This document shows positions 26,015 to 33,692 of a stretch of 64,000 nucleotides of DNA, one piece after another. Source of the DNA: Adhaeribacter arboris. GTDB lineage: Bacteria; Bacteroidota; Bacteroidia; Cytophagales; Hymenobacteraceae. The notes beneath the pieces are model-generated. The model was not told the DNA's origin. It saw nothing but the letters and a program-made list of their open reading frames with translations, and made no database searches. The DNA lies in the NCBI RefSeq assembly GCF_003023845.1, contig NZ_PYFT01000001.1, forward strand, positions 2,666,001 through 2,730,000, written 5' to 3'. Position numbers and translations under genes: made by a program. Numbering within the stretch: the first letter of the stretch is position 1; each line of letters begins with the position of its first letter.

Positions 26015-27238
26015 ATGAGAGTTCTTTATATTCATCAGTATTTTATCACTCCTAACGAACCCGGAGGAACTCGTTCCTATTGGTTTGCTAAAGAATTAAT
26101 TGCAAACGGTCATCAAGTAATAATGCTTACCAGTAGAAATAAGCAGCAAAAATTAATTGAAAAGAAATTGATTGATGGCATTGAAGTAATTTACATTAAA
26201 AATTCCTACAGCAACAATATGGGAATTATAAGTAGATTATGGTCTTTTTTCCGGTTTATGCTACTCTCTACTTGGGTTGGGCTTAGGCAAAAAAACATAG
26301 ATTTAGTTTATGCTACTTCAACACCTTTGTCCATCGGCATTCCGGCCTTAGCTATAAAGCAATTTAACGGTATTCCGTACATTTTTGAAGTACGTGATCT
26401 TTGGCCAGAAGTGCCTATCCAAATGGGCGCTATAAAAAATAAATTTGTTATAAACCTTCTGAACTGGTTTGAAAAAAAGATTTACTTCTCCGCTAAGCAT
26501 GTAGTAGCCTTATCACCAGGAATGCGCGATGGTGTGATTAAAACCGGCACATCTCCTAATAAAGTTACCATGATTCCTAACATGGCTAAAAAAGACGAGT
26601 TTTTCGTAAGAGCTAAAAACTGGGAAGTAGCCCGTACTTTTAACCTGGATACAAACCATTTCAATGTCGTTCATTTTGGCGCAATGGGTATTGCTAATGG
26701 TTTAGAATATATAGTAAAAGCAGCCGCTGTTTTAAAAAGAAAAAATATTCAAAATATAGATTTTGTTTTTTTAGGTGAAGGAAAAACTGAGCTCGAACTT
26801 AAGAGAATTTGCGAATTAGAAGAGTTAACTAATGTTAAGTTTTTAGGTAAACATCCCATGAAAACTGTATCTGAGATAGTTAATATATGCGATTGTTCTA
26901 TGGTTTCCTTCTCGGACGTTCCCATTCTATACACGAACTCACCTAATAAATTATTCGATTCACTCTCAGCGGGCAAACCACTAATAGTAAATTCTGCTGG
27001 ATGGACAAAAGAAATGGTAGAAGAAAATAATTGTGGTGTTTATGTTAACCCTCAAAACCCGGATGACTTGGCTAACATGCTGGTAAAAATGGCGTCTAAT
27101 CCAATATGGTTACGAGAAATGTCGGTAAATAGTCGCCGTTTGGCTGAAGAAGTTTATGATAAAACAATACTTTGTAAAAAATTTGTTAAAGTAATTGAAG
27201 CATACAATGTACAGAAACCTGCTGAAACGTTTTCTTGA
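26015..27238 (+). CDS. Family 4 glycosyltransferase, WbuB-like
   Basis: GT-B fold enzyme of 407 residues resembling WbuB/L-FucNAc-transferase-type glycosyltransferases. N-terminal [24 protein letters not shown] is characteristic of that group, followed by [11 protein letters not shown]. The C-terminal part has [20 protein letters not shown] and [18 protein letters not shown] in the donor-binding place. WbuB-like enzymes often act second, next to the initiating phosphoglycosyltransferase, and here the stop overlaps the PglC-like gene by 32 bases. That makes it a good candidate for adding the second sugar. Confidence 0.9.
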
Positions 27239-27818
27239 TTTCCTGATTGCCATTAGTGCATTTATAATTGCTTTACCTATTTTCATCTTGGTAACCATTA
27301 GTTTAGCCGTAGCTAACCAAGGTAAAGTGTTTTTCTTTCAGGCTCGGCCGGGTAAAAACACTAAAACCTTCCGCATCATTAAGTTTAAAACTATGAATGA
27401 TATAAAAGATGCAAGTGGCAAGCTATTACCTGATGAAGTTCGGTTAACAGCAGTTGGTAAGTTTGTCAGAAAAACATCTTTAGATGAAATTCCCCAGCTA
27501 CTAAATGTTATAAAAGGAGACATGAGTCTGATTGGCCCTCGGCCATTATTAGTGGAATACTTACCGCTCTATAATGAAGTACAAAAACGCCGTCATGAAG
27601 TTCGTCCTGGAATTACTGGTTGGGCTCAGGTAAATGGCCGTAATGCCATTAGTTGGGAGCAGAAATTTGAGTATGATGTTTGGTATGTAGACCACATTAG
27701 TTTTTTGCTGGATGTAAAAATCATTCTACTTACAATTAAAAAAGTATTTAAATCAGAAGGCATTAGCCAGCAAGGACACGCCACTATGCCATTTTTTGAA
27801 GGAGTTAAACAAGTATGA
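27207..27818 (+). CDS. PglC-like monotopic phosphoglycosyltransferase (initiating enzyme)
   Basis: Small initiating transferase of 203 residues that moves a phospho-sugar from UDP-sugar to undecaprenyl phosphate at the inner membrane. It has an N-terminal re-entrant hydrophobic segment (about 8-32) and the bacterial sugar transferase domain. That domain shows KFKTM, the catalytic Asp-Glu pair (D93-E94 in [12 protein letters not shown]), [11 protein letters not shown] and [14 protein letters not shown]. It lacks the large N-terminal domain of WbaP-type enzymes, so it is of the PglC/WecP small class. The frame opens at TTG (27195); ATG 27207 is preferred. It overlaps the GT4 upstream and shares ATGA with the ATP-grasp gene downstream. 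Confidence 0.95.
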
Positions 27819-28780
27819 ATATTTTAATTACATCAGCGGGACGAAGAGTTTCTTTAGTAAGAGCTTTTAAGAATGAGTTAAAAGTCTTTTTCCCGGATAG
27901 CCAAGTATTTACATCTGACATGAACCCTAAGCTGTCAGCGGCTTGTAACGTATCGGATGGCTACTTTAAAATGAAAAGTGTGGCTGAAGCATCATACATC
28001 AACGATTTATTGGAACTATGCTTAGATCAGAACATAAAACTTGTAGTTCCAACCATAGATACTGAATTACAGGTATTAGCAAATCACAAAGATAACTTTG
28101 CCAAGCAAGGAATTCATGTAATAGTCTCTTCATCCGACTTTATAAGTAAATGCCGCGATAAGCGTAAAATTAACCAATTCTTCGAACAATCCGGAATACC
28201 AATACCAGCTGCAATAGATAAACAAAACCCTACTTTCCCGCTTTTTATAAAACCTTATGATGGAAGTTTAAGCGCAGATATATTTCTTGTGCGTGGGCCT
28301 GAAGAACTGACGCATTATCATATGACCAATGAAAAGCTTTTGTTTATGGAATATATTGATAAAACGGAACACGACGAGTACACTGTAGATATGTACTACG
28401 GAAAAGATAATGAGGTGAAATGCATTGTACCCCGACGCCGAATAGAAATACGTGGCGGGGAAATAAGCAAAGGAATTACCTGTAAAAATATAATTGTTCC
28501 TTATTTAAAAGAAAAAATTGGCTATATAGCGGGAGCAGTAGGTTGCCTTACAGTACAAGTGTTCCTTAATAAGAATAACAATCAAATCTATGGCATTGAA
28601 ATAAACCCCAGATTTGGTGGCGGTTTTCCTTTAAGCTATCAATCAGGAGCAAATTATCCAGGTTGGTTGATTAAGGAATATTTACTTAATGAAAGTATAT
28701 CTTATACAGATAATTGGAGCAACAACTTATTAATGCTCCGTTATGACGATGAAGTTCTAGTTCAAAACTATGAGATTTAG
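27815..28780 (+). CDS. ATP-grasp family ligase (PylC/CarB-like)
   Basis: ATP-dependent carboxylate-amine ligase of 321 residues. Residues 1-100 form a Rossmann-like pre-ATP-grasp domain ([31 protein letters not shown]). The ATP-grasp core has [31 protein letters not shown] and the metal-binding [19 protein letters not shown]-grasp enzymes join an acid to an amine through an acyl-phosphate. It overlaps PglC by 4 bases and HAD by 11 bases, so the three are translationally coupled. In this position a PglD acetyltransferase is expected, which makes acylation of the 4-amino sugar, perhaps with an amino acid, the natural hypothesis. The substrate is inferred only. Confidence 0.88.
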
Positions 28781-29447
28781 CGATAATACGTTTGTAGTAT
28801 TTGATCTTGACGATACCATTTATCAAGAAATTGATTTCTTAAAATCGGCGTATCGCCATATTGCAGGTTTGCTGCAACCTGCTTTAAAGAAGGATTTGTT
28901 TGATGAGATGTGGGTGCGCTTTCATAATAAAGAAAACGTTTTCGAATGGCTTATAACCGAACATGCTTCTGAATTACCTGATATTACTACTTCATTCCTA
29001 TTAAATGAGTATCGTTCTCATTTGCCAAAGATCACCTTATCTGAAGATGTAATTGAGTTCCTGAGTTATTTAAAAGAAGCCAAAATTTTGTGTGGTCTTA
29101 TTACTGACGGTCGTAGTATCACTCAACGCAACAAGTTAAAAGCATTAGGCATAGAAGCTTTTTTTGCAAATATTATAATTTCGGAAGAGTTTGGGTCGGA
29201 GAAGCCTAATGAACGTAATTTCTTATTCTTTGAACAAAAGTACCCAGGTAAAGAATTTTATTACATAGGCGATAATACCGCAAAGGATTTTATTGTACCA
29301 GCAAAATTAGGATGGTATACGGTTTGTTTAAAAAGTAAAGGCCAAAATATTCATCCTCAGGATTTAAGTAGGAAACCTATACCAACAAAAATAATTAATT
29401 CTTTTAAAGAATTAATGCCAATAGTTGTCAAGGAATCATCTATTTAG
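28770..29447 (+). CDS. HAD-family phosphatase
   Basis: Cytosolic HAD-superfamily hydrolase of 225 residues, probably a phosphatase of a small metabolite. The motifs are complete: motif I VFDLDDTIY (nucleophile D12, acid/base D14), motif II LITDGRS, motif III Lys in SEKPNERNF and motif IV YIGDNTAKDF. The cap is the helical C1 type. It overlaps the ATP-grasp gene by 11 bases, so the two are almost certainly expressed as a pair. It could remove a phosphate from a precursor or product of the ligase reaction. Confidence 0.88.
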   Translation: MRFSDNTFVVFDLDDTIYQEIDFLKSAYRHIAGLLQPALKKDLFDEMWVRFHNKENVFEWLITEHASELPDITTSFLLNEYRSHLPKITLSEDVIEFLSYLKEAKILCGLITDGRSITQRNKLKALGIEAFFANIIISEEFGSEKPNERNFLFFEQKYPGKEFYYIGDNTAKDFIVPAKLGWYTVCLKSKGQNIHPQDLSRKPIPTKIINSFKELMPIVVKESSI

Positions 29448-29596
29448 ATTTTATGCTTATAAATTTATTTCAGTAAAATAACTTAACTATTAAAAGTAGA
29501 AACATTTCACAAAAATCAGTCTTTTGAATTTTAGTAAAGATCTCTACTATTTTCTAATAACTGTAATCCAGATATTTATATATTATTAAATATAAT

Positions 29597-29624
29597 CTCA
29601 AAAATATGAACTCAAAAATATGGC
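29597..29624. repeat. 14-bp tandem duplication over a start codon
   Basis: CTCAAAAATATG occurs twice head to tail (29597-29610 and 29611-29624, differing only in the last two bases), giving two ATG triplets. Only the first is in frame with the aminotransferase. Confidence 0.85.
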
Positions 29625-30754
29625 TTTCCTCACCTCACATGGGTGCAAGCGAGTTTAACTACGTTAAAGAAGCTTTTGACACCAATTGGATTGCACCATT
29701 AGGACCACATGTAGATGGTTTTGAGAAAAACCTAGAAGACTTTTTAGGCCACAACACATATGTTGCCGCCTTAAGCTCAGGAACAGCTGCTTTACATTTA
29801 GCCTTAATTATATTAGGTGTAAAAGCCGGTGATGAAGTAATATGTCAATCTATGACATTTTCAGCTTCTGCAAACCCTATCGCTTACCAAGGAGCCACAC
29901 CGGTATTTGTTGATAGTGAAGAACAAAGCTGGAACATGTCGCCCGAATTTTTAGAAATAGCTATTCAGGATCGACTAAAAAATGGCAAAAAACCAAAAGC
30001 CATAATTGTAGTGCATTTATATGGAATGCCTGCCAATATGACTCGTATAATGGAAATTGCTAATAAATACAATATTCCCGTAGTAGAAGACGCCGCAGAA
30101 GCCCTTGGTTCCTCTTATAAAAACCAACCCTTGGGTACATTTGGGGCTATGAGCATATTATCATTTAATGGCAATAAAATTATTACTACTTCAGGTGGAG
30201 GTGCTTTAGTCTCAGCTAATCAAGATTGGATTAAGAAAGCCCGCTTTCTTGCTACCCAAGCACGCGATGTTGCCCCTCATTACCAACACTCTCATATAGG
30301 TTATAATTACCGAATGAGCAATATATGCGCTGGAATTGGACGAGGCCAGATGGAAGTTTTATTGGATCGGGTAAAGCAACGCCGTTACAATTTTGAGTAC
30401 TATAAAAATGCATTAGCATCTATCCCGGAGATAAAGTTTATGGAAGAGCCATCAACAGGTTATTATTCTAATAGATGGTTAAGCACGATTTTAATTGATA
30501 ATACAAGTAACAAAAGTATAGATCGGGAACAATTGCGCTTATCTCTAGAGAAAGATAACATTGAATCGCGCCCACTTTGGAAACCTATGCATTTACAACC
30601 TGTATTTGCTAATACTCCTTTTTATGGAGATGGCACAAGCGAACATTTATTTCATCAAGGACTTTGCCTTCCATCGGGTTCAAATTTAACGATAGGAGAT
30701 TTAAATAGAGTTATAGAACAAGTTGTAAATACTTTTGCGGCTGTACAAGTGTAA
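29606..30754 (+). CDS. DegT/DnrJ/EryC1-family sugar aminotransferase (PglE-like)
   Basis: PLP-dependent aminotransferase of 382 residues that converts a 4-keto nucleotide sugar to the 4-amino sugar. It has the PLP lysine K191 in SFNGNKIITTSGGGAL, the Asp of VVEDAAEALGSSY, and the N-terminal LSSPHMGASEFNYVKEAF with NWIAPLGPHVDGFE seen in PglE/LegC-type enzymes. With the PglF-like dehydratase encoded further down it should make UDP-4-amino-4,6-dideoxy-GlcNAc. The 158-base gap after the HAD gene and a hairpin after its stop mark a possible transcript end. Confidence 0.92.
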   Translation: MNSKIWLSSPHMGASEFNYVKEAFDTNWIAPLGPHVDGFEKNLEDFLGHNTYVAALSSGTAALHLALIILGVKAGDEVICQSMTFSASANPIAYQGATPVFVDSEEQSWNMSPEFLEIAIQDRLKNGKKPKAIIVVHLYGMPANMTRIMEIANKYNIPVVEDAAEALGSSYKNQPLGTFGAMSILSFNGNKIITTSGGGALVSANQDWIKKARFLATQARDVAPHYQHSHIGYNYRMSNICAGIGRGQMEVLLDRVKQRRYNFEYYKNALASIPEIKFMEEPSTGYYSNRWLSTILIDNTSNKSIDREQLRLSLEKDNIESRPLWKPMHLQPVFANTPFYGDGTSEHLFHQGLCLPSGSNLTIGDLNRVIEQVVNTFAAVQV

Positions 30755-31706
30755 GTGATTTTATAATATAAATTGAGTAGCATGAATTTATCTTGACAAC
30801 ATTCATGCTACTCAATTTACAACTTGTTTAAAGTTCGATTTACTTACCTCCTTCTCTTTTTATTCTTCAAGTTATTCAACATTAGTAGTGTTTTGTTAGC
30901 TACTAATCCTTTTAAGAAATAACTATTCTTGAAAACACCACTCATTAAAACAAAATACTTGCTAGCTCCTCTATATTCTACAAGTATTTACTATATTAAA
31001 ATAAATTATTAATATATAGATAAAATAATATTTTATTGTCATTTTTTTCTACATTGGCGTAATTATTGTAACTCTAACTATAATATATAAGAATACCTTT
31101 ATTTTGTAGGAATCATGGTTAAAGGCGTAAAATTGAAATTTTAATTATAAATAACAGAAAATGTTAATAAATTAACATTTTTTTAACTTATTTTGCGCTA
31201 GTAAATACTTAACTGTATCCACTGTTAGTGCTAGAATGAATTATATAATTTATAAATTTTGTACACGAATAAAATAAAATATTAATCTATTTAAATATTT
31301 GAAAATATTTAGTACTTTCGGTTAATGGTTAGTTTTTTTGAATTAAATAATAAAAAAAAATATTGTCAACAAATTTCATTTTTTATTGTATATACATATT
31401 ATAATTAGACATTGTGCAGCTTATTAATAATTTGATTACAAATATTATTTGCATTGCAGCATTTACTTTGTTTATTTTATAAAAATTTCTTGTTAATTAC
31501 TTATTTAATATATAGTAAATAATTCTATAAACCTTTATTTAAATAATTAGTAAAAGACTTTACCAAAATACCAGAAGCACAAAAAATCACAACCTCTTTA
31601 GATTACCTGAGTCTGTGATAAGCTTTAAAACTATTTAGCATTATTTTATCTAATAAACATTATTCGTTAACAACATTAGAACTACGAATTAAAATTACTT
31701 TGCGTC
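30755..31706. other. 952-base AT-rich gap
   Basis: It begins with a perfect hairpin (30771-30817) and is otherwise very AT-rich, with no credible coding frame or known RNA motif. It presumably carries the promoter of the PglF-like gene. Confidence 0.5.
30771..30817 (+). terminator. Hairpin after the aminotransferase gene
   Basis: A perfect 17-bp stem (30771-30787 with 30801-30817) and a 13-base loop, 17 bases past the stop codon. The stem is strong but the T-tract after it is weak. Confidence 0.7.
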
Positions 31707-33692
31707 ATGAAAAAATTTATACTTGCTAATTCAATACCACGATGGGTCATTTTATTGATCGATCAGGTTATTACAAGCTGGTCATTTGTATTAGCATTCT
31801 TTGTAATAACTCAATTTGAATTTTCAAATATATTAAGAGGACATTTCTTTATATATACAGGTTTGTATTGTATTATCTCTTTAAGCGTGTTTTTTCTGAT
31901 GCGTATTCACACGGGGGTAATTCGATATTCAAATACCCAAGATATTGTCAGGATTTTTTCAGCAGTGCTGGCAACTAGCTTTATCTACATTTTAGTGTTA
32001 AGCACAGTAGTTATTCCGGTTTATCACATTAACACGGTAAACATCTTTATAGTACTACTCATTAACTTTTTTATTTCCTCTTCTTTATTAATTATGCTAA
32101 GAATAGGAGCTAAAAGTTTCTTTCAATTCATTAAGAGAAGCACTTCAACCGAAAAGGAGACTGTTTTAATTTTTGGTTCAGATACTCACTCTATGCTGAT
32201 AAAGAAGGCTTTAGAAAATAGTAGCTCAAGCAGATTTGTAATAGCTGGCTTTATTGACGACAACTATCAAAATGTTAATAAATATATTCAACAGAAAAAG
32301 GTTTACTCTGCTAAGAATATAGAACAACTTCGTTTAAAGCTTAAGGTTGATAAGATAGTAGTAATGAGCGAAGACTTAAAGACCGAGGGCAGAAAGAAAA
32401 TTGTTGAGAAGTGTTTAGAAATTGGTTTAAAAGTACTTACAGTTCCGCCAACTGAACAATGGATTTCTGGCAAGTTACGCATTAATCAGATTCAAGACCT
32501 TAAAATTGAAGATTTACTACAGCGTGATCCTATTATTATTCAAAGCGATAACATCTCAAGAGAAATAACGGGCAAACGGGTCTTAGTTACAGGTGGTGCA
32601 GGCTCTATTGGTTCAGAAATTGTCAGACAAGTTTTAACTTTCGATCCAGCCATGGTAATTATTTGCGACCAAGCTGAATCGCCACTACATGAATTGCAAC
32701 TTGAAGTAGAGGAAGCCTATCCGAATGCTAATATAAAGATATATATAGCAAATATTCAGAATTACAATCGGATGTACTCTCTTTTCGAAGAGTTTAGCCC
32801 TGAGATAGTTTTCCATGCTGCTGCCTACAAACATGTGCCAATGATGGAGAATAATCCTTCAGAAGCTATTATAACCAATATATTAGGTACTAAGACTCTG
32901 GCTGACCTATCTATTGCTTTTGATGTAGAAAAGTTTGTAATGATTTCAACGGATAAAGCAGTTAATCCGACGAATATTATGGGAGCTTCAAAACGTATTG
33001 CAGAAATTTATATTCAATCATTGAATAACATAAATGTTCAATCACTTAATAATATTAATTACATAAGCTCCCGCTTAAATGATTTAACACATTCTAAAAC
33101 AAAGTTTGTAACTACCCGGTTTGGCAATGTATTAGGTTCCAATGGATCTGTAATACCCCGTTTTAGAGCACAAATTGAGAAAGGAGTACCTCTTACGGTT
33201 ACACATCCAGAAATTACCCGTTATTTCATGACTATTCCTGAAGCAGTGCAGCTGGTATTAGAGGCCGGTAGCATGGGTAAAGGTGGCGAAATATTCCTTT
33301 TCGACATGGGGGAACCAGTTAAAATTGCAGACCTAGCCAGAAAAATGATCAAGCTAGCAGGTCTAATTCCAGATGTAGATATTAAGATCGTGTATACCGG
33401 TTTACGGCCCGGCGAAAAACTTTATGAAGAATTACTTAATAAAGAAGAGGAGTCAATCCCAACGCACCACGATAAAATAAAAATCTCTAAGGTTAGAACT
33501 TATTTATACGATAAGGTAGCTAGTGATATTAAAGATTTGCTTACTTTGGTTCAAAAAGAAAATGATGATTACGAAATCGTTAAGAAAATGAAAGATATTG
33601 TACCTGAGTTTTTAAGTAAAAATTCTAAATACGAAGAGTTGGACTACGGAACTTCTAATAGCAATTCTGTTTTAATTCAACAAGCTAGTTAA
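31707..33692 (+). CDS. PglF/CapD-type nucleotide-sugar 4,6-dehydratase
   Basis: Inner-membrane enzyme of 661 residues, probably UDP-GlcNAc 4,6-dehydratase. The N-terminus has four transmembrane helices (about 12-130), then a CoA-binding-like Rossmann domain (about 145-270), then the catalytic SDR domain with GGAGSIG (296-302), AAYKHVPMMENNP and ISTDKAVNPTNIMGASK. The catalytic Tyr is replaced by Met (M425, with K429), as in PglF/FlaA1/WbpM. Compared with the usual family there is an extra segment of about 20 residues between AEIYIQSL and TKFVTTRFGNVLGSNGS, made by an 8-codon duplication. It feeds the PglE-like aminotransferase. Confidence 0.93.
   Translation: MKKFILANSIPRWVILLIDQVITSWSFVLAFFVITQFEFSNILRGHFFIYTGLYCIISLSVFFLMRIHTGVIRYSNTQDIVRIFSAVLATSFIYILVLSTVVIPVYHINTVNIFIVLLINFFISSSLLIMLRIGAKSFFQFIKRSTSTEKETVLIFGSDTHSMLIKKALENSSSSRFVIAGFIDDNYQNVNKYIQQKKVYSAKNIEQLRLKLKVDKIVVMSEDLKTEGRKKIVEKCLEIGLKVLTVPPTEQWISGKLRINQIQDLKIEDLLQRDPIIIQSDNISREITGKRVLVTGGAGSIGSEIVRQVLTFDPAMVIICDQAESPLHELQLEVEEAYPNANIKIYIANIQNYNRMYSLFEEFSPEIVFHAAAYKHVPMMENNPSEAIITNILGTKTLADLSIAFDVEKFVMISTDKAVNPTNIMGASKRIAEIYIQSLNNINVQSLNNINYISSRLNDLTHSKTKFVTTRFGNVLGSNGSVIPRFRAQIEKGVPLTVTHPEITRYFMTIPEAVQLVLEAGSMGKGGEIFLFDMGEPVKIADLARKMIKLAGLIPDVDIKIVYTGLRPGEKLYEELLNKEEESIPTHHDKIKISKVRTYLYDKVASDIKDLLTLVQKENDDYEIVKKMKDIVPEFLSKNSKYEELDYGTSNSNSVLIQQAS
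33013..33060 (+). repeat. In-frame 24-bp tandem duplication inside the PglF-like gene
   Basis: Two head-to-tail 24-base units encode IQSLNNIN and VQSLNNIN. The reading frame is kept and the family does not normally have this insert. Confidence 0.85.

Follow-up and report, generated by a model that had tools for sequence, protein, structure and literature searches.

In the pgl system of Neisseria, passages of two published accounts distinguish two bifunctional enzymes: PglB combines an acetyltransferase with a phosphoglycosyl transferase, and in PglB2 an ATP-grasp takes the place of the acetyltransferase (PMC11130364), yielding GATDH, a glyceramido-acetamido-trideoxyhexose (PMC11130364; PMC6959607). 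In these passages pglB and pglB2 exclude each other, with ORF8 accompanying PglB2 (PMC11130364), the C-terminal domain of PglB2 is "proposed" to transfer the glycerol moiety, both N. oralis and N. mucosa are shown to have GATDH glycans, and a HAD hydrolase (UNIPROT D7N385 in N. oralis) is marked in the pgl loci (PMC6959607, S2 Fig legend). A pglB2 gene in Vibrio parahaemolyticus is also cited in a passage of a further paper (PMC10644004). Here we analyze a cassette of five genes in a 64,000-nucleotide stretch of Adhaeribacter arboris, a member of the Bacteroidota (assembly GCF_003023845.1, contig NZ_PYFT01000001.1, positions 2,666,001 to 2,730,000 of the forward strand; hereafter the window, whose internal numbering is used throughout). 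In this cassette, separate genes for an ATP-grasp ligase and a HAD phosphatase stand between those for a PglC-like transferase and a PglE-like aminotransferase. An initial annotation of the window had proposed that this pair acts in place of the PglD acetyltransferase of the bacillosamine pathway.

All genes of the cassette lie on the + strand. The reading frame of the PglC-like phosphoglycosyl transferase (27195..27818; Bac_transf, 1.6e-62) opens at a TTG at 27195, and an in-frame ATG at 27207, also chosen in the initial annotation, is its probable start; the closest PDB sequence is 8g1n, named N,N'-diacetylbacillosaminyl-1-phosphate transferase (6.6e-78). It overlaps by 4 bases the gene for the ATP-grasp ligase (27815..28780; 321 amino acids; PylC-like_N and ATPgrasp_Ter), which overlaps by 11 bases that of its partner, the HAD phosphatase (28770..29447; 225 amino acids; HAD_2, 9.7e-19). 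The PglE/LegC-type 4-aminotransferase (29606..30754; DegT/DnrJ/EryC1, 2.7e-97) has as its closest PDB sequence 1o61 (2.8e-98), which we take to be Campylobacter jejuni PglE, and reaches 390 bits against the LegC-family model TIGR04181, below the cut-off of 420. The PglF-like membrane 4,6-dehydratase (31707..33692; Polysacc_synt_2, 4.4e-116) completes the cassette. The positions and both overlaps are those given in the initial annotation, and the family matches agree with its PglF-like, PglE-like and PglC-like calls; judged by family, the assignments are firm and identify PglF-, PglE- and PglC-type enzymes of the bacillosamine pathway.

The annotated absence of PglD from the window was borne out, with no match at E 1 or better to our own PglD model among the 55 window open reading frames (ORFs) of at least 50 amino acids that remained after overlap removal. 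This absence cannot be extended to the whole genome, because one NeuD/PglD-family protein above the TIGR03570 cut-off (171.8 against 160.8 bits) is encoded 2.95 Mb away (C1:5643429-5644040); PglD_N (PF17836) has no match in the whole genome at E 0.001. This distant protein served as the seed of our PglD model (score gap 170 to 142 bits; threshold 165), which after iteration gives it 152 bits, below the threshold. The surrounding 19.9 kb contain no ORF that is matched by the models for PglC, PglE, PglF, ATP-grasp or HAD.

The ATP-grasp and HAD genes form a single module across a wide set of loci. A scan of genome contigs with the single ATP-grasp sequence returned no relative, and a scan with an alignment returned 529 confirmed matches. 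The best 80 of these matches, named loci, were combined with 11 other survey loci and the window into a set of 92 ATP-grasp loci labeled with our own models; the 80 are the most similar ones, and their gene context is not an unbiased sample. At least four genomes appear twice in the set (L062/L100, L064/L099, L066/L116 and L068/L133). HAD is the next gene after ATP-grasp in 82 of the 92 loci (78 of 88 without repeated genomes), with an overlap of 8–38 bases in 73 of the 82 adjacent pairs, and the two are fused in a single ORF in three loci (L102, L112 and L159). One glycosyltransferase-like ORF separates them in L083 and L158, the HAD gene is cut by the contig end in L070 and L094, and L086 stops at the contig end. 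With adjacency in 82 of the 92 loci, the pairing is more than a matter of chance, and the earlier claim that the tight coupling reflects one function is upheld by this adjacency and by the fusions. PglC lies directly upstream of ATP-grasp in 30 loci. Among the 64 loci with full flanks, HAD is present in 62, PglC in 61, PglE in 36, PglF in 25 and PglD in 6 (58, 57, 34, 24 and 6 of the 60 without repeated genomes). The survey hence supports a module linked to PglC.

A second survey, anchored on PglE, reveals that this module and PglD exchange for one another. With the window's PglE as query at E 1e-110, and hence restricted to close PglE sequences, 94 of 395 genomes were retrieved, and 92 of the 94 loci were scored, L276 and L281 having received no PglE label. 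In the 57 loci with PglC within 6 kb, 37 carry only PglD, 5 only ATP-grasp and HAD, 15 neither and none both (Fisher p=0.0037). Mapped onto trees of 77 loci, the type of module has to switch no fewer than 13 times on each of the PglC and PglE trees, where shuffled labels give means of 26.1 and 26.0, respectively; the module types are clustered on the trees, yet they have been exchanged several times, which indicates that PglD and ATP-grasp with HAD fill one slot. These are quick trees, and 40 of the 91 inner branches of the PglC tree have less than 80% support; its well-supported branches alone force at least seven changes of the ATP-grasp label. A clean swap is seen between L217, with the order PglC-PglD-PglE-PglF, and L089, with PglC-ATP-grasp-HAD-PglE-PglF, where the identity between loci is 78% for PglC, 82% for PglE, 87% for PglF and 76% for the next gene. 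In a second pair (L226/L087) the flanks are up to 97% identical, but PglC only 42%, and the locus with ATP-grasp has a formyltransferase and a PIG-L deacetylase in addition. Both pairs consist of a named Chryseobacterium locus and a close relative. Within the PglE survey, the replacement of PglD by ATP-grasp and HAD is a rule, not a law.

The ATP-grasp proteins of these loci make up a discrete family, with matches of at least 329 bits in 12 of 395 Bacteroidota genomes and a next best match of 139 bits. The window protein reaches 391.8 bits against NF009405 (PRK12767.1-4; "carbamoyl phosphate synthase-like"), above the curated cut-off of 390. Its AlphaFold model has a confidence score (pLDDT) of 92.6, and the top solved folds are 2pn1, a structural-genomics entry that bears the carbamoyl phosphate synthase name and is not known to be characterised, and PylC with lysine (4ffl). 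PylC, a carboxylate-amine ligase that ligates amino acids, is the best match with a known reaction. Carbamoyl phosphate synthase was rejected as a candidate activity, being a family label only, with 2pn1 and PylC as the best folds instead. A carboxylation of the amine is not favored either: PurK- and biotin-carboxylase-like folds stand lower in the fold list, and we know of no precedent for such a carboxylation at this step. Eleven of the 12 positions checked hold the same residue in all 92 members, and E179 is a glutamate in 83; the invariant K116, K146, E188, E262, N264 and R266 are taken here as ATP- and Mg-binding residues. The HAD model (pLDDT 90.7) has N-acylneuraminate-9-phosphatase as its closest fold. 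D12, D14, D113, K145 and D173 are kept in 87 of 87 family members and T112 and D168 in 86, and the motifs that we associate with subfamily IA (DxD nucleophile, T/S, K and acidic motif IV) can be matched to D12/D14, T112, K145 and D168/D173, which points to a member of the HAD phosphatase superfamily (subfamily IA). The proposal that the pair stands in for PglD is consequently sustained by the position it takes in related loci and by the retention of its putative catalytic residues, and finds its limit in the loci discussed below that also hold PglD.

These observations suggest a pathway in which the five genes would together account for the synthesis and the loading of the initial sugar of a surface glycan. 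By family, PglF would convert UDP-GlcNAc into a 4-keto-6-deoxy sugar and PglE would place an amine on C4. Acetyl-CoA and PglD would be replaced by the ATP-grasp enzyme, which, with ATP, would convert a small carboxylic acid into its acyl phosphate and join it to the 4-amine of UDP-2-acetamido-4-amino-2,4,6-trideoxyglucose. A carboxylate-amine ligase and a phosphatase at the 4-amine step are most simply accommodated by formation of an amide with a phosphorylated acid, followed by dephosphorylation. The only characterized ATP-grasp precedent at this step of which we know is Neisseria PglB2, which the initial annotation did not name, and because glyceramide is the only product known to us for an ATP-grasp enzyme at this step, the acid would most likely be 3-phosphoglycerate, from which the HAD protein would strip the phosphate to leave a 4-glyceramide; in an alternative order, HAD would first make free glycerate. 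The glyceramido-sugar phosphate would next be passed by PglC onto undecaprenyl phosphate and then extended by the glycosyltransferases encoded upstream. ATP-dependent acylation at N4 in place of PglD is our best reading of the module and we consider it likely. That the product is a glyceramide, with HAD as the phosphatase of that acyl group, has in our estimate slightly less than an even chance, and we assign a probability of roughly 0.47 to the pathway as a whole, that is, to an unfused module of PglB2 type that places (phospho)glycerate on the 4-amine and whose HAD component dephosphorylates it.

Several observations weigh against this pathway. We infer the attack at N4, the acyl group and the role and order of HAD, and no computed result fixes the acyl group; the link to PglB2 and GATDH is drawn from domain make-up. 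No HAD gene lies within 9.5 kb of ATP-grasp in two of the 92 loci (L104 and L146), and it is within the same distance that PglE is found in only 36 of the 64 loci with full flanks. Among the 57 loci with PglE and PglC, 15 carry neither module, so that other solutions exist; without the PglC condition the counts become 38, 5, 49 and 0 (p=0.07), and the window is itself one of the five ATP-grasp loci of that survey. A specialization of PglC, in which PglC but not PglE would sort by module type, was considered and found no support, as both trees need 13 changes. The initial annotation had held that a PglD gene found nearby and required would speak against its proposal, and a nearby PglD gene, absent from the window, is present in a minority of the relatives, namely 9 of the 92 loci (9 of 88 without repeated genomes, 6 of 64 with full flanks): L102, L103, L112, L132, L138, L139, L142, L148 and L159. 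In Parabacteroides goldsteinii a full-length PglD is fused before ATP-grasp (L103:9302-10957), and in a Prevotellaceae metagenome-assembled genome (MAG) ATP-grasp, HAD and a PglD part share one ORF (L159:9935-12289), the PglD part scoring 155.7 bits against TIGR03570, just below the cut-off. The conserved histidine of PglD, which we take to be catalytic, is kept in 51 of 51 PglD-like sequences, including those of L103 and L159. In some Bacteroidales, PglD and ATP-grasp may both act in one pathway; alternatively, PglD, or its N-terminal part alone, may help ATP-grasp. FemAB/Acetyltransf_6-like genes, moreover, lie within 5 kb of ATP-grasp in 20 of the 92 loci, against 1 of 41 PglD-type loci, as counted with a model built from five such genes and in PglD-type loci that are 20 kb stretches.

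These last two features bear on the nature of the acid. The same module could act at the same N4 with an amino acid, for example serine derived from phosphoserine with HAD as a phosphoserine phosphatase, and a PglD or FemAB-like protein could sometimes act next on the new amine. The PglD-ATP-grasp fusions of L103 and L159 would fit an acetylated aminoacyl group, and the PylC-like fold matched by the window protein is one that ligates amino acids. The FemAB-like genes mean that some family members may yield an aminoacyl product, and their count led us to shift 0.03 of the probability from glycerate to an amino acid. N-acetyl-alanyl amino sugars are known in Pseudoalteromonas, according to a passage of PMC3210612. 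No FemAB-like gene was found, however, in the searched region of the window or within 5 kb of ATP-grasp in 72 of the 92 loci, and the one published ATP-grasp enzyme known at this step makes glyceramide, in the passages cited above (PMC11130364; PMC6959607). The aminoacylation of the 4-amino group put forward in the initial annotation thus has the FemAB-like neighbors on its side and the PglB2 precedent against it, and we judge an amino acid unlikely, if still worth entertaining. A different reading, in which ATP-grasp and HAD act on another part of the glycan, such as a uronic acid amide or a later sugar, and owe their link with PglC to the modular assembly of these loci, would account for the incomplete presence of PglE, for the coexistence with PglD in nine loci and for the finding of PglC in only 3 of 47 short loci (about 4 kb) of more distant ATP-grasp proteins. 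It is harder to reconcile with PglC in 61 of 64 loci, with the absence of PglD from every ATP-grasp locus of the PglE survey that has PglC nearby and with the conserved flanks of the L217/L089 swap. PglE is, furthermore, available elsewhere in genomes that lack it nearby: a close PglE, also when not at the same locus, is encoded in 10 of 12 ATP-grasp genomes and in 84 of 383 others (p=1.7e-5), and in five survey genomes without a nearby PglE it lies 20–155 kb away. We regard action on another part of the glycan as quite improbable. Lastly, the distant NeuD/PglD protein of A. arboris, as the one protein of the genome over the TIGR03570 cut-off, might acetylate the sugar, in which case the first sugar would be an ordinary diacetylbacillosamine and ATP-grasp and HAD would be accessory. 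Its distance, the lack of cassette genes around it and its 152 bits with the PglD model, together with the fact that PglD is most often linked to the other genes (37 of 57 loci), make this very improbable.

Among the best 80 of the 529 matches, the cassette is mostly found in Bacteroidota; outside that phylum these 80 include Acinetobacter terrae (L101), Aggregatibacter (L131), Actinobacillus (L144), two Opitutales MAGs (L102 and L112) and a Rhizobium MAG (L153). Of 111 genomes from the family of Actinobacillus, 4 have the ATP-grasp, and 369 genomes of the Acinetobacter class gave six matches at 1e-30, of which G671, the seed, and G725 exceed 430 bits and the other four score 108–159. In the same class, L305 has the order PglC-ATP-grasp-HAD-aminotransferase-PglF; the aminotransferases of L305 and L101 reach only 173–185 bits with our PglE model and so belong to another, more distant subtype. 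A plasmid of Priestia filamentosa carries PglF pieces, PglE, PglC, ATP-grasp (35% identity) and HAD in that order. A plasmid of Segatella copri (L304) holds a 115-residue PglD remnant between PglC and ATP-grasp (L304:5655-6002), and no full PglD was found in the 12.9 kb examined. FemAB/Acetyltransf_6-type genes adjoin HAD in L061, L065, L066 and L067 and stand one gene off in L062. No relative of the ATP-grasp protein was found in phages, none of 36 pattern matches in viral contigs was confirmed, and among 31 genomes of the genus of L090, searched at 1e-10 as a test of Tannerella, the one match was the seed itself.

More distant ATP-grasp proteins were located in 47 short loci, in which at least two genomes appear twice, and stand beside aminotransferases in 10 and HAD genes in 9. 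In L005, L006 and L047 an aminotransferase is followed by such an ATP-grasp and a protein of about 105 amino acids, with no PglC in the approximately 4 kb examined; in L005 and L006 the next protein, of about 340 amino acids, was read as NeuB-like, which is another UDP-4-amino-sugar context. The genome of A. arboris itself encodes a second ATP-grasp and HAD pair (G000:C1:570279-580362, equivalent to L076: 7780-17863) beside PseI in a PseB-PseC-PseI cluster whose three Pse proteins are all above curated cut-offs. We read this ATP-grasp as fused to an SDR-like N-terminal part, and similar pairs occur in related genomes within its family (L004, L010, L011 and L012; L055 is the genome of L004). 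The cluster is another UDP-4-amino-sugar route, which we count in favor of the proposed pathway, and the pair may be an N-acylation module of a pseudaminic-type acid. A broader and distinctly tentative proposal, which we hold to be somewhat doubtful, is that ATP-grasp and HAD constitute a general and mobile phospho-acyl relay, an alternative to acetyl-CoA-dependent acetyltransferases for UDP-4-amino-4,6-dideoxy sugars. The ligase would place a phosphorylated hydroxy acid (3-phosphoglycerate, perhaps phosphoglycolate) on N4 and the phosphatase would unmask it, in the service of both bacillosamine-type priming sugars and pseudaminic-type acids. Relatives of the pair would then be candidates for the gene that adds the N-glyceroyl group to pseudaminic acid in Tannerella forsythia, called elusive in passages of two papers (PMC6120980; PMC6388019), for which the module offers a candidate kind.

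The cassette is embedded in a polysaccharide locus that, in our reading of the ORFs, encodes Wzc-, Wzx- and Wzy-like proteins and glycosyltransferases and looks like a Wzx/Wzy-type cluster of the Bacteroidota. A family-4 glycosyltransferase (26015..27238, + strand; Glycos_transf_1, 3.8e-18; Glyco_trans_4_4, 5.7e-17) overlaps the start of PglC and probably adds a later sugar. Directly after the aminotransferase, a perfect 19-nt inverted repeat (30769..30819, listed on the + strand) is a probable terminator and suggests that transcription ends there, and the 952 AT-rich bases between aminotransferase and dehydratase (30755-31706) contain no gene-sized ORF. The gene order is glycosyltransferase, PglC, ATP-grasp, HAD, PglE, inverted repeat, gap and PglF.

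If the proposed pathway is correct, a gene pair readable from DNA would predict that the first sugar bears a group other than acetyl (probably glyceramido) in many Bacteroidota, in some Pasteurellaceae and Acinetobacter and beyond, and the HAD protein would gain a role. In Flavobacterium psychrophilum, published passages describe the N4 group of the same sugar as an antigenic feature, predicted to vary among strains through different acyl genes at a locus containing pglE, pglF and a homologue of PglC (PMC6519341), and the group may also decide acceptance by downstream enzymes. Among the papers listed by our literature searches, judged by title or the start of the abstract, we found no description of an ATP-grasp and HAD module outside Neisseria; the kind is known from that genus, and the unfused, HAD-paired and exchanged module of Bacteroidota polysaccharide loci is a variant that we did not find described.

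Comparison with the known systems defines both what is shared and what is particular to the window. The Campylobacter PglF-PglE-PglD-PglC pathway to diacetylbacillosamine uses the same dehydratase, aminotransferase and transferase families, whereas the window lacks PglD and has ATP-grasp and HAD in its place. The F. psychrophilum O-polysaccharide R-group genes (wfpB, pglE and pglF) offer, in the same passages, a parallel case of otherwise alike loci in which the N4 substituent varies, but there the predicted route builds 3,5-dihydroxyhexanoyl on an acyl carrier protein and relies on a PglD homologue for its transfer (PMC6519341); the window has no PglD. In the type B flagellin modification of Clostridioides difficile, as described in passages of the source, the ATP-grasp gene CDR20291_0245 adjoins the FemAB-like gene 0244, much as FemAB-like genes lie near ATP-grasp in 20 of the 92 loci; locus and product are different, and the passages describe it without a PglC or PglE context. 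The closest likeness is to the PglB2 system of Neisseria, in which an ATP-grasp replaces the acetyltransferase beside the same kinds of transferase, aminotransferase and dehydratase. The window differs from it in having a gene each for transferase, ATP-grasp and HAD, which overlap one another in turn, the first two being distinct ORFs that share 4 bases instead of a fusion, and in that the locus looks like a Wzx/Wzy-type polysaccharide cluster and not like one for the glycosylation of pilin.

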